From: Campylobacteraceae bacterium
GTDB lineage: Bacteria; Campylobacterota; Campylobacteria; Campylobacterales; Sulfurovaceae
Direction of reading: 5' to 3'
DNA length: 64,000 bases
NCBI GenBank assembly: GCA_027068975.1
Contig: JALXFN010000045.1
Coordinates: 1-64,000 of the forward strand
The notes under the pieces were generated by a model, which worked only from the letters and a program-made list of their open reading frames with translations, searched no databases and was not told where the DNA came from. Positions 26,956-59,620 of the stretch are shown piece by piece (position 1 is the first letter of the stretch; each line of letters starts with the position of its first letter). Position numbers and translations under genes: made by a program.

Positions 26956-28173
26956 TTATTTTCTATTTTTACCAGCAATAATAAATCGTAAAGCATTAAG
27001 TTTAATAAACCCTTCAGCATCTGATTGGTCATAAACATCATCTTCTTCAAATGTTGAGTGTGCCTCTGAAAAGAGTGACTTTTCTGATTCACGACCAACC
27101 ACCATAACATTACCTTTGTAGAGTTTTAATTTTACAGTTCCCTCTACATGCTCTTGAGTTTTGTCAATAGCGGCTTGAAGCATCTCACGCTCAGGGGACC
27201 ACCAGTAACCATTGTAGATAAGTTTTGCATAGCGTGGCATAAGTTCATCTTTTAGGTGTGCTGCTTCACGGTCAAGAGTAATAGACTCAATAGCTCTATG
27301 TGCTTTTAGCATAATGGTTCCACCTGGAGTTTCGTAACAACCACGTGCTTTCATTCCAACGTATCGGTTTTCAACAATGTCAATACGTCCAATTCCATGT
27401 TTGTTACCATACTCGTTAAGTTTGGTTAAAATAGTCGCTGGAGTCATTGCTTCACCATTAATAGCAATAGGGTCACCATTTTTGTAATCTATGGTAATAT
27501 ACTCTGCTTGGTCTGGTGCCTTTTCAGGGCTTGTTGTCCAGAGCCACATATCTTCTTCTGGCTCTTTGCTTGGGTCTTCTAAAACAAGACCTTCGTAAGA
27601 GATGTGAAGCAAGTTTGCATCCATAGAGTATGGAGAAGATTGACCTTGCTTTTTCTCTATTTTGATACCATGAGCCTCAGCATAAGCCAAAAGTTTTTCA
27701 CGAGAGTTCAAGTCCCACTCTCTCCATGGTGCAATAACAGTGATGTCCGAGTTAAGTCCAAGGTAGCCAAGCTCAAAACGCACTTGGTCATTCCCTTTTC
27801 CTGTTGCTCCGTGACTTACGGCATCAGCACCAGTTTGTGCTGCAATTTCAATTTGCTTTTTTGCAATAAGTGGTCTAGCAATAGAAGTTCCAAGTAGGTA
27901 CTCACCCTCATAGATAGTATTTGCTCTAAACATAGGAAAGACGAAATCTTTTACAAACTCTTCACGTAAATCTAATATAAAAATATTTTCAGGTTTAATT
28001 CCCATTGCTAAAGCTTTTTCTCTAGCTGGTTCAACCTCTTCACCTTGACCAAGGTCTGCTGTAAACGTTACCACTTCACAGTTATATTCATCTTGTAGCC
28101 ACTTTAAAATAATACTGGTATCAAGCCCACCAGAATATGCTAAGACTGCTTTTTTAATCTCTTTCTTTGCCAT
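26956..28173 (-). CDS. argG: Argininosuccinate synthase
   Basis: A 405-residue enzyme that joins citrulline and aspartate with ATP to give argininosuccinate, the penultimate step of arginine synthesis. The N-type ATP pyrophosphatase loop YSGGLDTS is at 13-20; the citrulline and aspartate sites are seen in [10 protein letters not shown] and the C-terminal half. The length is standard for the type I enzyme. The window also encodes an arginine kinase (57767), which would use the end product of this pathway, though the genes are far apart. The start [10 protein letters not shown] follows a clear upstream gap. Confidence 0.96.
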
Positions 28174-53049: not shown

Positions 53050-53197
53050 CCCTATATTTTGTAAATATTTTTTAGTGTGCATTAGATTTTATTGAATAGA
53101 CTCGAAGTCCTAGCCTTAGCTAAGTCAAGAAGATATTCAATAAAATATGATGTGCAATAAAGAATATAGACATTTATAAGGTTATGCAAGAAGTCTA
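53036..53197. mobile_element. TA-type MITE, copy 2 (opposite orientation)
   Basis: A 162-bp element related to that at 34046-34210 in reverse orientation. Ends: GACTTCTTGAATAACC and the complement of GGTTATGCAAGAAGTC, matching at 19 of 21 bases. The core CTAGCCTTAGCTAAGTC is the complement of the core of copy 1. Right flank is TA; left has become TG. The left end forms the last codons of coaX; the right end lies 20 bp upstream of the hisG ATG. Confidence 0.7.
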
Positions 53198-54617: not shown

Positions 54618-57600
54618 ATGATAGAAAAACTCATAAACTTTTCATGGCGAAACAGATTTTTAGTTATCGCTACGACCATACTACTTTTACTAGGTTCATT
54701 TTGGGCGATTAAAAATACTCCTCTTGATGCATTGCCTGACTTAACGCCACCACAAATCATCGTCTCTGTTAAATGGAAAGGGCAGTCTCCACAGCTTATA
54801 GAAGACCAAATTATCTACCCACTTACCAATGCTCTAATGAGCGTGGCAGGAGCAAAGACGGTTCGGGCTTTTTCATCGTTTGAGAATGCTTTGGTTTATG
54901 TCATCTTTGAAGAGGGAGAAGATATCTACTTTTCACGTGACCGAGTGGCAGAGAAGATAAATGAGCTTACCTCAACCTTTCCTAAAACAGCTCAAGTCAA
55001 AATGGGACCAGATGCCACAGGGATTGGGTGGGTTTATGAGTATGCTTTAACCTCTAAAACCAAAGATTTATCTGAACTTTATGACTTACAACAGTATTAT
55101 TATAAATATGCCCTTTTAGGAATCAACGGTGTTTCAGAAGTGGCAACGGTTGGTGGGTTTGAGAAGAACTATCAAGTGACGATTAATGAAGCAAAGCTAG
55201 TAGAGCAAGAGTTAAGTCTTCAAGATGTCATAAAAGCCATTAAAGCTAACAATGAAGACCGTGGAGGAAGAATAGTTTTAGAGAATGGCTATGAGAATAT
55301 TATTCAAGCCATTGGCTATGCTAAAACTGCTGAAGATTTAGGGAACATTGTCATTAAAACACGCAATGGAAAGCCTCTTAAAGTCTCTGATGTGGCAGTT
55401 ATAGATTTAGTCCCCTCCTATCGTCGTGGTATGGCAGATTTAAATGGTCAAGGTGAAGTTGTGGGTGGGATTGTTATTGTCCGTTACAATGAAAATGCGT
55501 ATGCTGTGATTCAAGAGATAAAAGAGAAACTAGAAAAAATAAAACTTTCCGATGTAAATGTGGTAACTACTTACGACCGTTCAGACCTTATCTCAAAAGC
55601 CATTAGTACCTTGAACCATACCCTCTTAGAAGAGTCTGCTGTGGTTTTGATTATTATTTTAATGTTTCTGCTTCATTTTCGTTCAGCCTTGGTGATTATT
55701 ATTACTTTGCCTCTAACCATTGCCATTACTTTTTTACTTATGAAGTGGGCAGGTGTTGAGTCAAACATTATGTCCCTTGGAGGGATTGCCATTGCTATTG
55801 GAGCGATGATAGATGCTTCTATTGTTATGGTTGAAAATGTCCACAAAAAACTACAAGCATCAGGGGGAGAAACGTTAGGGGGAGAAGCACGAACAGAAGT
55901 GGTTTTAAATGCAGCCAAACAGGTAGGACGACCTATCTTTTTTGCGTTAATACTTATTGTGGTTTCATTTTTGCCTATTTTTGCTCTGTCAGGTCAAGAG
56001 GGGGCGTTGTTTAAACCTTTGGCGTATACCAAAACCTTTGCCATGATAACAGGGGCAATTATCTCTATTACGCTTGTACCTATTTTAATGGTCTATCTAA
56101 TTCGAGGTAAAATCTTAGATGAACGTAAAAACTGGTTAAACCGATTTTTTATTTGGCTCTACTCTCCACTGCTTAAGGGGGCGTTATATTTGCGTTATAT
56201 TGTCCCTTTTGTTTTGGTAGGGGTTATCGCTTATGGTGTGTGGATTTATGAGCAACAGAAGTGGGAGTTTATGCCACCACTCAACGAACAGACCTATATG
56301 TATATGCCTGTAACGCCTTATGGAATTGGAATCGACATGGCAAAAGAGCTAACTCAAAAAACGGACAAGATTTTAAAAGAGAACTTCCCTGAAGTTGCCA
56401 CGGTATTTGGAAAAGCAGGACGAGCCGACACAGCCACCGACCCAGCACCACTAAGCATGATAGAGACCATCATAACCTTTAAACCTCAAGAGCAATGGCG
56501 AGAGGGAATGACCTATGAAAAGCTCTTAAATGAGATGGAAGCAATGCTTCAAGTAAAAGGGTTAACCAACTCATGGACGTACCCTATTAGAGGACGAATA
56601 GATATGCTTCTTTCAGGTATTCGTACCCCATTAGGTATTAAACTCTATGGTGATACCTCCGAAGAGTTAGCCAAACAAGCAAAAGAGATAGAGAAACGTC
56701 TGAAAGCATGCGGAGGAACACAGTCAGTCTTTGCCGACAAAGCAAACTCTGGTTACTACCTCAATATTGACCTAAACGATGCAAAAATAGCAGAGTATGG
56801 TATTAGCAAAAACATCATCTTAGATACCATTTCAAATGGGGTGGGTGGTAGTAGTGTCGCCACACTTTATGATGGCATAAAACGCTACCCCATTTCAGTA
56901 CGTTATGAACAGAAGAGTCGTTCTGATTTAAGTAGCATTGGAAAGATTCGGATTAAAACCCCTTATGGTTACACCCCTTTAGAGACCTTTGCACACTTGT
57001 ACTACAAAGAAGCACCCTCTATTTTAAAAGCAGAGAAAGGTAAAAAAGTAATTTTCATTTACATTACACCCAACCAAGGCGTTACCTCACAAGTTTACAA
57101 AAAAGAGGGGATGAAACTCTTAGCCGATTTAAAACTACCCACAGGTTACTATTATGAATGGGCAGGAGAGAGTGAGTACCTAGAGTCAGCAATGGAACGT
57201 TTGACTTTTATTTTACCCATTACACTTTTTATAACCTTTATACTTATCTATTTGGGCTTAAAAAGCATTAAAAATGCGTTAATCGTTTTCTTTACCTTGC
57301 CCTTTGCTGCTGTAGGAGGTATTGTCTACTTAGATATGTTAAATTTCAACTTCTCCATCGCTGTGGTTGTTGGGTTCTTGTCGCTCATAGGGGTAGCAAC
57401 CGAGACGGCTATTGTGATGATTATCTATTTAGAAGAGGCAGTTGAAAAAGTTAAAGTAAGAAGCAAAGCAAATATAAAACACGCCATCTACGACGGAGCA
57501 GTTTTACGAGTACGTCCAAAACTTATGACTGTGTTTGCTATTTTAGGTGGGTTAATCCCCATTATGTACATAGACGGGGTAGGAAGTGAAGTGATGCAGA

Positions 57601-57701
57601 GAATCGCTGCCCCTATGATTGGTGGGGTGGTTAGTTCTGCTGTCTTGACGCTTTTGATTATTCCTGCTGTTTATTATATGAGTATTAAGAAGGAGGGCTA
57701 A
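54618..57701 (+). CDS. cusA: CusA/CzcA-type heavy-metal RND efflux pump
   Basis: A 1027-residue proton-driven RND transporter of the heavy-metal class. Twelve transmembrane segments in two halves, with the conserved AIGAMIDASIVMVENVH of helix 4 containing the proton-relay Asp and Glu. ALPDLTPPQIIVSVKWKGQ near the N-terminus and RIDMLLSGIRTPLG in the pore domain are CusA/SilA-like; methionines in the pore region fit Cu(I)/Ag(I). CusB- and CusC-like partners are not adjacent; a short HlyD-type adaptor lies on the opposite strand at 58829, beyond the arginine kinase. A REP-like hairpin sits in the leader. Confidence 0.9.
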   Translation: MIEKLINFSWRNRFLVIATTILLLLGSFWAIKNTPLDALPDLTPPQIIVSVKWKGQSPQLIEDQIIYPLTNALMSVAGAKTVRAFSSFENALVYVIFEEGEDIYFSRDRVAEKINELTSTFPKTAQVKMGPDATGIGWVYEYALTSKTKDLSELYDLQQYYYKYALLGINGVSEVATVGGFEKNYQVTINEAKLVEQELSLQDVIKAIKANNEDRGGRIVLENGYENIIQAIGYAKTAEDLGNIVIKTRNGKPLKVSDVAVIDLVPSYRRGMADLNGQGEVVGGIVIVRYNENAYAVIQEIKEKLEKIKLSDVNVVTTYDRSDLISKAISTLNHTLLEESAVVLIIILMFLLHFRSALVIIITLPLTIAITFLLMKWAGVESNIMSLGGIAIAIGAMIDASIVMVENVHKKLQASGGETLGGEARTEVVLNAAKQVGRPIFFALILIVVSFLPIFALSGQEGALFKPLAYTKTFAMITGAIISITLVPILMVYLIRGKILDERKNWLNRFFIWLYSPLLKGALYLRYIVPFVLVGVIAYGVWIYEQQKWEFMPPLNEQTYMYMPVTPYGIGIDMAKELTQKTDKILKENFPEVATVFGKAGRADTATDPAPLSMIETIITFKPQEQWREGMTYEKLLNEMEAMLQVKGLTNSWTYPIRGRIDMLLSGIRTPLGIKLYGDTSEELAKQAKEIEKRLKACGGTQSVFADKANSGYYLNIDLNDAKIAEYGISKNIILDTISNGVGGSSVATLYDGIKRYPISVRYEQKSRSDLSSIGKIRIKTPYGYTPLETFAHLYYKEAPSILKAEKGKKVIFIYITPNQGVTSQVYKKEGMKLLADLKLPTGYYYEWAGESEYLESAMERLTFILPITLFITFILIYLGLKSIKNALIVFFTLPFAAVGGIVYLDMLNFNFSIAVVVGFLSLIGVATETAIVMIIYLEEAVEKVKVRSKANIKHAIYDGAVLRVRPKLMTVFAILGGLIPIMYIDGVGSEVMQRIAAPMIGGVVSSAVLTLLIIPAVYYMSIKKEG

Positions 57702-57715
57702 GATATAATACATAT

Positions 57716-57749
57716 TAGACTTCTTGCATAATTCTATAAATGAGTCTAT
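57716..57749. mobile_element. Solo end of the TA-type MITE
   Basis: TAGACTTCTTGCATAA and the following bases up to 57749 match the first 33 bases of the MITE copy at 53197 reading inward (GACTTCTTGCATAA...CTATAAATG...GTCTAT). The rest of the element is absent, so it is a remnant or a solo end. It lies just upstream of the arginine kinase and includes an in-frame ATG at 57740. Confidence 0.55.
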
Positions 57750-57766
57750 TTAAATTAAGGAATAAA

Positions 57767-58801
57767 ATGAACTACCCAAACTTACCAGAAGATTGTACAT
57801 CACTATTATGTAAATACCTTACAAAAGAGGTTTTTGAAGAATTAAAAGATAAAAAAACAACCAATGGCTTTACCTTAGAACAAGCCATTAACTCAGGTCT
57901 TGTTAACCTAGACAGTGGAATAGGGGTCTACGCAGGAGATGAAGAGTCGTATAGTCTGTTTGCTCCACTTTTTGATGCCATTATCGAAGATTATCATGGT
58001 TTTGGAAGAGAAGATAAACATCAAAGTAATTTAAATCCTGATGATTTAAATGCACCCAATCCTGACCCTAATGGTGAGTTTATTGTCTCGACACGTATTC
58101 GAGTTGGGCGTAATGTTGCTCATTTTCCCCTTGGTCCAGCTATTTCTAAAGAGCAAAGAGATTTAGTAGAGTCAAGTATAGTTGAGGCTCTTAAGAGCTT
58201 AAGTGGTGAGTTAGAGGGAAGGTATTATCCTCTACTTGGCATGAGTAAAGAGGTTCAAGAGGAGCTTATTAAAGACCACTTCTTATTTAAAGAAGGAGAC
58301 CGTTTTTTAGATGCTGCTGGATTGAACCGTGATTGGTCTGAGGGAAGAGGGATTTACCATAACAAAGAGAAGACCTTTTTAGTGTGGGTCAATGAAGAGG
58401 ACCAGCTAAGAATTATATCTATGCAAAAGGGTGGGGACATTACAGAAGTATTTAATCGATTGGTTACTGCTGTAAAGGCTATAGAAACGAAAGTGGCATT
58501 TTCTTACAGTGAGCATTTAGGGTATATTAGCTCTTGTCCGACTAATTTAGGAACAGCCATGAGAGCCAGTGTTCATATAGCGCTTCCAAACTTAGCAAAA
58601 GATATGGAGGCATTTAAAGCCATTACCGACAAGTATTATTTGCAAATTCGTGGGATTCATGGAGAACATTCTCAGAGTGAAGGTGGAGTTTATGACATTA
58701 GTAACCGTCGTCGTTTAGGAATTACAGAAGTTCAAGCCGTTCAAGATATGTATGATGGTGTGGTTGCTTTGATAAAAGCTGAGAAGGAATTAACCAAGTA
58801 G
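57767..58801 (+). CDS. Phosphagen (arginine) kinase
   Basis: A 344-residue ATP:guanido phosphotransferase with both domains: N-terminal helical (about 1-90) and C-terminal catalytic (95-340). The guanidine-specificity loop SGIGVYAGD (50-58) is of the arginine-kinase type. [26 protein letters not shown] with the two Glu at 210-211, SSCPTNLGT with the reactive Cys (C257), and [17 protein letters not shown] with E300 are all present; positions run about 14 lower than in Limulus arginine kinase. It would store ATP energy as phosphoarginine. Unlike the bacterial protein-arginine kinase McsB, it keeps the N-terminal domain. Start at 57767 with AAGGA upstream; the ATG at 57740 lies in a mobile-element end. 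REP head GTAG forms the stop. Confidence 0.9.
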
Positions 58802-58828: not shown

Positions 58829-59620
58829 TTATTTTTTCTCTTTAATAACAACTTTTGCATACATTCCAGGGAAGACATTATGGTCACCCTTATCAAATGA
58901 TATACGTATTCTTATTTTGTGAGTCATTGGGTTAGCATCTGGAACGATGGCTTTGATGGTTCCAATGGTTTTGTATTTTATAGAAGGAATACTAACGGTT
59001 AGTTTCTCTCCTACTTTTACTTGAGCAATGATACTTTCAGAAACAGAAGCGTCAATTTCTAAATCTTCCGTATCAACCATCATAATGGTTAACATTCCTG
59101 GCATAATCATATCACCTGGTTTAATGTTTCTTCTTACGATGACACCATCTGATGGAGCTTTCATTTTAAGATAGTTAAAGATAGTTGCCATCTGCTTAGC
59201 TTTAATAGAAGCTTGTTCTACTAATACTTGTGCAGAGTCCAACATGGCTGAGACATTTTCAGCTTGTGCATCTAAGTCATCTATATCCATCATAGGAATG
59301 TTTTTACGTTGTTTTAATTGATTCTTTCGTTTATTTATATTTTGTAAACGTTTTCTCCAAAACTCTACTACTATTTTTGACTGTTCTAACATTAGGTCAG
59401 CTTGAGACTTCATAATGTCAAACTCTGCAGACTCCATTTCATAAAGAGGGTCTTCACGTTTAACTTTGTCACCAATTTTTACAAAGACTTTTTTTACATA
59501 GCCCATATACCGACTACCTATCATCTTTTGACCATCAGAAACCACGGTTCCTGTAATTGTAATATCATCTGCCTTTAGTGAGACGATGAGTAAAAACGTT
59601 ACAATTAATAATTTTTTCAT
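58829..59620 (-). CDS. HlyD-type efflux periplasmic adaptor
   Basis: A 263-residue exported protein with a signal peptide (1-17). A lipoyl-like half motif GYVKKVFVKIGDKV (about 42-55), a long alpha hairpin (about 70-150) with LKQRKNIPMM, the second lipoyl half GVIVRRNIKPGDMIMPG and a beta-barrel (170-255) form a short membrane-fusion protein. The cognate pump could be the CusA-like protein at 54618, but it is on the other strand and separated by the arginine kinase. An OMF partner is missing. A c-type cytochrome gene is just upstream on this strand. Confidence 0.8.
   Translation of the reverse strand: MKKLLIVTFLLIVSLKADDITITGTVVSDGQKMIGSRYMGYVKKVFVKIGDKVKREDPLYEMESAEFDIMKSQADLMLEQSKIVVEFWRKRLQNINKRKNQLKQRKNIPMMDIDDLDAQAENVSAMLDSAQVLVEQASIKAKQMATIFNYLKMKAPSDGVIVRRNIKPGDMIMPGMLTIMMVDTEDLEIDASVSESIIAQVKVGEKLTVSIPSIKYKTIGTIKAIVPDANPMTHKIRIRISFDKGDHNVFPGMYAKVVIKEKK

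Follow-up and report, generated by a model that had tools for sequence, protein, structure and literature searches.

Introduction

Arginine kinase (AK) in invertebrates stores spare ATP energy as phosphoarginine. What such an enzyme is for in bacteria is an open question, and it is raised again by a reading frame in the window considered here, that is, the whole stretch of 64,000 nucleotides of Campylobacterota DNA that was analysed (Table 1). A conserved operon found in relatives of this bacterium, described below, makes the question directly testable.

Bacterial AKs have already been published, and the present gene adds to a known but sparsely studied set. They are reported in Sulfurovum lithotrophicum, Sulfurovum sp. 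NBC37-1, Desulfotalea, Moritella and Myxococcus, with an origin that is called debated (PMC6429109). According to this review, which cites Suzuki et al. 2013, the S. lithotrophicum homologue has been characterised; this enzyme and that of NBC37-1 come from the same phylum and belong to the same enzyme family as the one in the window. Sulfurovum was rightly named as an AK carrier in the first-pass annotation.

Our overall reading, in which we have high confidence, is that the gene codes for a working ATP:L-arginine phosphotransferase of a phylum-resident clade, which is part of a module in many relatives and stands alone in the window. The activity, the role and the adenylate sensing discussed below are what we infer from sequence.

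Table 1. Positions of the features discussed; window coordinates unless a locus, plasmid or residue (aa) numbering is given.
Feature	Position	Strand	Remarks
argG	26956–28173	−	
Copies of AGACTTCTTGCATAA in the window	53182–53196; 57717–57731	−; +	11 further exact copies elsewhere in the genome
CusA/CzcA-type heavy-metal RND pump gene	54618–57701	+	TIGR00914; 65 bp from its end to the AK start
MITE end remnant with terminal inverted repeat AGACTTCTTGCATAA	57716–57748	+	33 bp; between the CusA-type gene and AK
AK ribosome-binding site, AAGGA	57757–57761	+	5 nt before the ATG; kept in sister species L020
AK gene, 344 aa	57767–58801	+	ORF, Pfam, AlphaFold2 model
AK N-terminal domain, PF02807	aa 9–74		
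AK C-terminal catalytic domain, PF00217	aa 134–341		
RND periplasmic adaptor gene (HlyD/CusB-like)	58829–59620	−	downstream of AK, convergent
argB2–AK loci of relatives	L022, L023, L024, L025, L029, L035, L050, L078, L080, L081, L085, L090, L161, L162		
Small protein gene f3	L080:4075–4371		and homologues
Second phosphagen kinase gene	L022:9096–10280	+	394 aa
Four-CBS kinase and regulator genes	L160:5265–7163		genome G459
AK behind proA-like gene	L032, 7983; L037, 8986; L045, 8593		
Plasmid phosphagen kinase gene	L055:5917–7014		NZ_CP110821.1; annotated hypothetical protein

Results and Discussion

The enzyme

The genome to which the window belongs (2.78-Mb assembly, 146 contigs, 96% complete) has MAGs of Campylobacterota as its nearest named relatives and holds one PF00217 protein, the AK itself. 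Both halves of the protein are matched far above cut-off in Pfam, with E-values of 2e-30 for PF02807 and 2e-78 for PF00217. The AlphaFold2 model has a pLDDT of 88.6 and its top PDB matches are all arginine kinases, at TM scores of 0.82–0.87. At the level of sequence, the PDB matches are single-domain animal AKs at E-values of ca 1e-130, while the best match to the protein-arginine kinase McsB has 7e-24. The identity is 57–60% to the AKs of Limulus, shrimp, T. cruzi and Anthopleura, 46% to a CK-type AK from sea cucumber, 45% to a taurocyamine kinase and 27% to B. subtilis McsB.

A longer version of the protein, starting at the in-frame ATG 57740, was considered and rejected. This codon lies within the MITE remnant, and because the frame is interrupted by a stop in the sister species L020, the start is placed at ATG 57767.

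The residues proposed in the first-pass annotation turned out to be correct when mapped on Limulus AK. The SGIGVY loop at positions 50–55 corresponds to S63–Y68, E210/E211 to E224/E225, C257 to C271 and E300 to E314. The nucleotide-binding arginines R110, R112, R215, R266 and R295 (Limulus 124, 126, 229, 280 and 309) are all present as well. In an alignment of 52 Campylobacterota AKs, the catalytic and nucleotide-binding residues are invariant in all 52, and the arginine loop varies at position 51 (G, S or N) and at position 52 (one V for I). The annotated eukaryote-like two-domain architecture is likewise borne out by the presence of both domains; the model has the AK fold, and the protein groups with AKs in the tree. 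We consider it confirmed on these grounds that the reading frame is a complete two-domain arginine kinase of single-subunit size, with predicted catalysis. The animal and trypanosome enzymes (Limulus 1m15, shrimp 4bg4, Anthopleura 4rf6, T. cruzi 2j1q) have the same two-domain fold, catalytic residues and arginine loop; they differ in that the host of the window AK is a bacterium and that the bacterial clade is separate in the tree.

The locus in the window

The CusA-type gene upstream of the AK is outside the conserved AK module. Between the two genes lies the MITE remnant, which had been noticed before and is indeed there; it is shared by the sister species L020 save for one base in the terminal repeat. 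This repeat, AGACTTCTTGCATAA, has 13 exact copies in the genome, compared to 0 for the reversed control, and inverted pairs of it are 147 bp apart. Full copies of this MITE family are ca 162 bp long. The surroundings of the window AK gave neither promoter nor terminator signals that exceed chance. Both the four-CBS histidine kinase and the argB2 gene of the module are absent from the window genome, so any control must come from elsewhere. The window AK is thus an orphan behind a pump gene of CusA type and a MITE remnant. It had also been suggested that argG in the same window could supply the substrate; the gene is present, but at ca 30 kb from the AK and on the opposite strand the link is weak. 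Judging by gene order, the actual link of AK to arginine lies in relatives, in which a dedicated argB precedes the AK gene.

With the CusA-type gene so close and on the same strand, one could argue that AK and pump gene form a metal-efflux operon in which the kinase has a role in the response to metals, the more so as similar adjacencies are seen elsewhere: a CusA 59% identical also precedes the AK in a distant relative (G358, locus L046), and in G009 (L049) the AK precedes an outer-membrane gene and an adaptor gene, with a CusA system nearby. These two cases may, however, be due to chance. Pump genes are missing from the surroundings of most AK loci, the MITE remnant separates the two genes in the window, and RND pumps of CusA type are driven by proton flow and not by ATP. 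A role in metal efflux is therefore improbable.

Substrate

Phosphagen kinases have changed substrate several times in animals, and PMC6429109 lists the resulting kinds, which means that a preference for taurocyamine, creatine, glycocyamine or another guanidino compound has to be weighed against arginine. The guanidino-specificity loop of the window enzyme is of the short arginine type (S63-G-V-G-x-Y68 in Limulus). In the two taurocyamine kinase domains these positions are occupied by other residues, and the CK-type enzyme reads DFHLGLL here. Arginine is also indicated by the neighbours of AK in relatives, which include argB and proA-like genes, and a different substrate is accordingly very unlikely.

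Distribution and descent

AK is found in 19 of 397 genomes sampled across the phylum and in 36 of 299 sampled from the order, two of the latter being fragments. The tree of the family was calculated with IQ-TREE and rooted on McsB; its 65 rows contain 52 Campylobacterota AKs and, as the sole other bacterial AK, one plasmid copy, the AKs of Desulfotalea, Moritella, Myxococcus and ciliates being absent from it. All 52 Campylobacterota AKs fall on one side of a branch (93/97), apart from the eukaryotic ones. The window AK groups with L020 and L021, and then with L022, L023 and L024 (99/91), and is as such nested among AKs that are linked to argB2. Its nearest relatives, at 96% (L020), 86% and lower identities, are all from Campylobacterota.

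Since the sampled Campylobacterota AKs make up a single clade without exception, the gene is resident in the phylum, with no recent transfer from a eukaryote to this bacterium. The AKs of the family code of the window (f1) are at the same time scattered in the tree, and forcing them into one clade costs 163 log-likelihood units (p-AU 2e-70). The single clade and the scattered family codes together argue for a gene that is old in the phylum and moving within it, and the sequences indicate that AK spreads by transfer between families inside Campylobacterota. An ancient transfer, with a eukaryotic donor or from the phylum to eukaryotes, is possible, and so is a gene that the phylum has in common with other bacteria.

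The horizontal transfer put forward in the first-pass annotation holds up, then, in that the distribution is patchy and crosses family borders, but not as a recent acquisition from a eukaryote. Such a transfer, from an animal or protist straight into the lineage of this bacterium, would agree with the 57–60% identity to animal AKs and with the patchiness. It would not agree with closest relatives that all belong to Campylobacterota, in a single clade whose members diverge widely and which lies apart from the eukaryotic sequences, and we give it hardly any credence.

Finally, a protein-arginine kinase of McsB kind, which would tag proteins for degradation by ClpCP, shares the C-terminal catalytic domain and its NCBIfam models do match the AK, but so far below cut-off (145 bits against 385, and 129 against 500), with the N-terminal guanidino-kinase domain PF02807 missing from McsB, a 100/100 branch placing the window protein with the AKs outside McsB, and RND pump genes in place of mcsA or clpC as neighbours, that this identity is ruled out on score, architecture and tree and its probability is practically nil.

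The module in relatives

About 54 AK loci were gathered and compared for gene context. The idea of one fixed AK neighbourhood had to be abandoned, as the contexts vary and there is no universal neighbour among these loci. However, one order recurs on a single strand, namely a response regulator of OmpR type, a histidine kinase, argB2, a small protein called f3, and AK. The argB2 gene precedes AK, with or without f3 in between, in 14 genomes (Table 1). Regulator and kinase are directly upstream of argB2 at L023, L078, L080, L085, L090 and L161, where the AK of L161 is cut by the contig end. At L050 the module is cut at the kinase by a contig end, while the genome G434, represented by the contig ends L081 and L158, is consistent with the same order. 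At L025 and L162 the histidine kinase is ca 2.5–3 kb away. Two loci have the two-component genes and no argB2, in the orders regulator-kinase-AK (L094) and AK-regulator-kinase (L038).

A further argB is present elsewhere in 12 of the 14 argB2–AK genomes, in G442 just as a contig-edge fragment; in G500 (L022) and G508 (L035) the linked copy is the sole one found. In the argB tree the linked copies cluster apart from the housekeeping ones, the exception being the unlinked argB of G358, which nests with them, and a strict single origin of the cassette argB is not rejected (p-AU 0.175). The linked copies share a few class-specific residues, e.g. Tyr21 and Ala268, which may be connected with inhibition. 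They also keep an N-terminal helix and a C-terminal signature which we take to be those of arginine-inhibited N-acetylglutamate kinases (NAGKs).

The f3 protein has 72–98 residues and is located between argB2 and AK where found. It has the conserved pattern QCEAII..GL...KV.RAL.II...LY....FE.YC...W, matches no Pfam family, and in terms of phage origin gives no more than a weak PHROG match (E 0.003).

The sensor kinase

In the linked kinase Pfam recognises four CBS domains and an HATPase domain, together with a weak match to PAS; its H-box, AHQWRQPL, is invariant and preceded by I. It is cytosolic, with no membrane segment and a highest 19-residue hydropathy of 1.1. When modelled alone, the four-CBS part (pLDDT 85) forms two Bateman modules and resembles, at TM scores of ca 0.8, MJ1225 (an archaeal homologue of AMPK gamma), SSO3205 with bound AMP and many structures of AMPK gamma itself. 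The predicted fold is thus like that of AMPK gamma and the archaeal MJ1225 and SSO3205, and these nucleotide-binding proteins make up most of the best PDB matches. Unlike AMPK gamma, the CBS part is fused to PAS and histidine-kinase domains, and its nucleotide binding is a prediction. The ribose-binding T-x-x-D motif is present in full in two of the four CBS units: across 13 homologues it is invariant in CBS3 (T179, D182) and nearly so in CBS4 (T243, D246), while in most of them CBS1 has no Asp and CBS2 no Thr.

Counted at an identity of at least 41% over the CBS part, the kinase is present in 12 of the same 299 genomes of the order. AK occurs in 11 of these 12, compared to 25 of the other 287 (Fisher p 1.9e-10, a value that overstates independence because the genomes are related). 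That the 12 genomes belong to four family codes, with gene orders that differ, speaks against common descent as the sole cause. The genome G459 has the kinase and its regulator (L160) together with one argB and no AK match.

From this linkage we infer that an adenylate-sensing two-component system controls phosphoarginine storage, both the ligand and the regulation being deduced in this way.

Proposed function

The AK would catalyse a reversible phosphate transfer from the gamma position of ATP to free L-arginine (ATP + L-arginine = ADP + phosphoarginine). When ATP is plentiful, phosphoarginine would be stored, and when the supply falls, ATP would be given back. From what is known of the family, this would buffer ATP when the electron donor or acceptor fluctuates.

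In genomes with the module, the CBS domains would read adenylate levels and set the transcription of the dedicated NAGK and of AK. The argB2 product would enlarge arginine synthesis, and the additional arginine would go into the phosphoarginine store, which would at the same time lower the free arginine available for feedback inhibition. In the species of the window, the AK would work without dedicated control by the module.

The presence of argB2 and an AMPK-like sensor in an operon with AK suggests a regulated bacterial energy buffer. The proposal is then that Campylobacterota have a regulated phosphagen module, in which a cytosolic histidine kinase with an AMPK-gamma-like sensor and its regulator control NAGK and AK, with the energy charge setting the phosphoarginine store, and that the window AK, though of this lineage, is uncoupled from the module. 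We give this proposal an even chance of being right. If the proposal is true, sulfur and hydrogen oxidisers with a fluctuating energy supply would possess a bacterial equivalent of the animal AMPK and phosphagen systems. A role in stress or development would suit the AK just as well as one in energy buffering; a title in the reference list of PMC6429109 reports that M. xanthus needs an AK homologue for its fruiting bodies.

In the open literature covered by the searches, the module of the relatives is undescribed: no paper describing a linkage of argB2 or the sensor kinase to AK was found in open-access full text. For the Sulfurovum AKs, the open papers found give no operon context, and a full-text search for AK together with CBS and histidine kinase returned none.

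Other contexts of phosphagen kinases

A second, divergent phosphagen kinase gene, ca 40% identical to AK, is located directly 3' of argB2-f3-AK at L022. It has Gly (NEGD) in place of the catalytic Glu equivalent to Limulus E225, and no second example of this type was found among the 299 genomes of the order.

Carriage of AK by plasmids or phages was also considered; the search returned, outside McsB, one true AK on a plasmid and none in phages. The plasmid belongs to Candidatus Bandiella woodruffii, a ciliate endosymbiont. Its kinase has insertion sequences nearby and a hydrophobic, signal-like N-terminus, and is possibly derived from the host.

At L032, L037 and L045, AK comes directly after a gene of the aldehyde-dehydrogenase family and a gene for an ABM-domain protein. 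The former reads as proA (glutamate-5-semialdehyde dehydrogenase), which makes another link to the glutamate/arginine/proline branch. At L052, L088, L091 and L095, all from one genus, AK is located downstream of a ThiF-family gene and beside a convergent PHO4 phosphate transporter gene.
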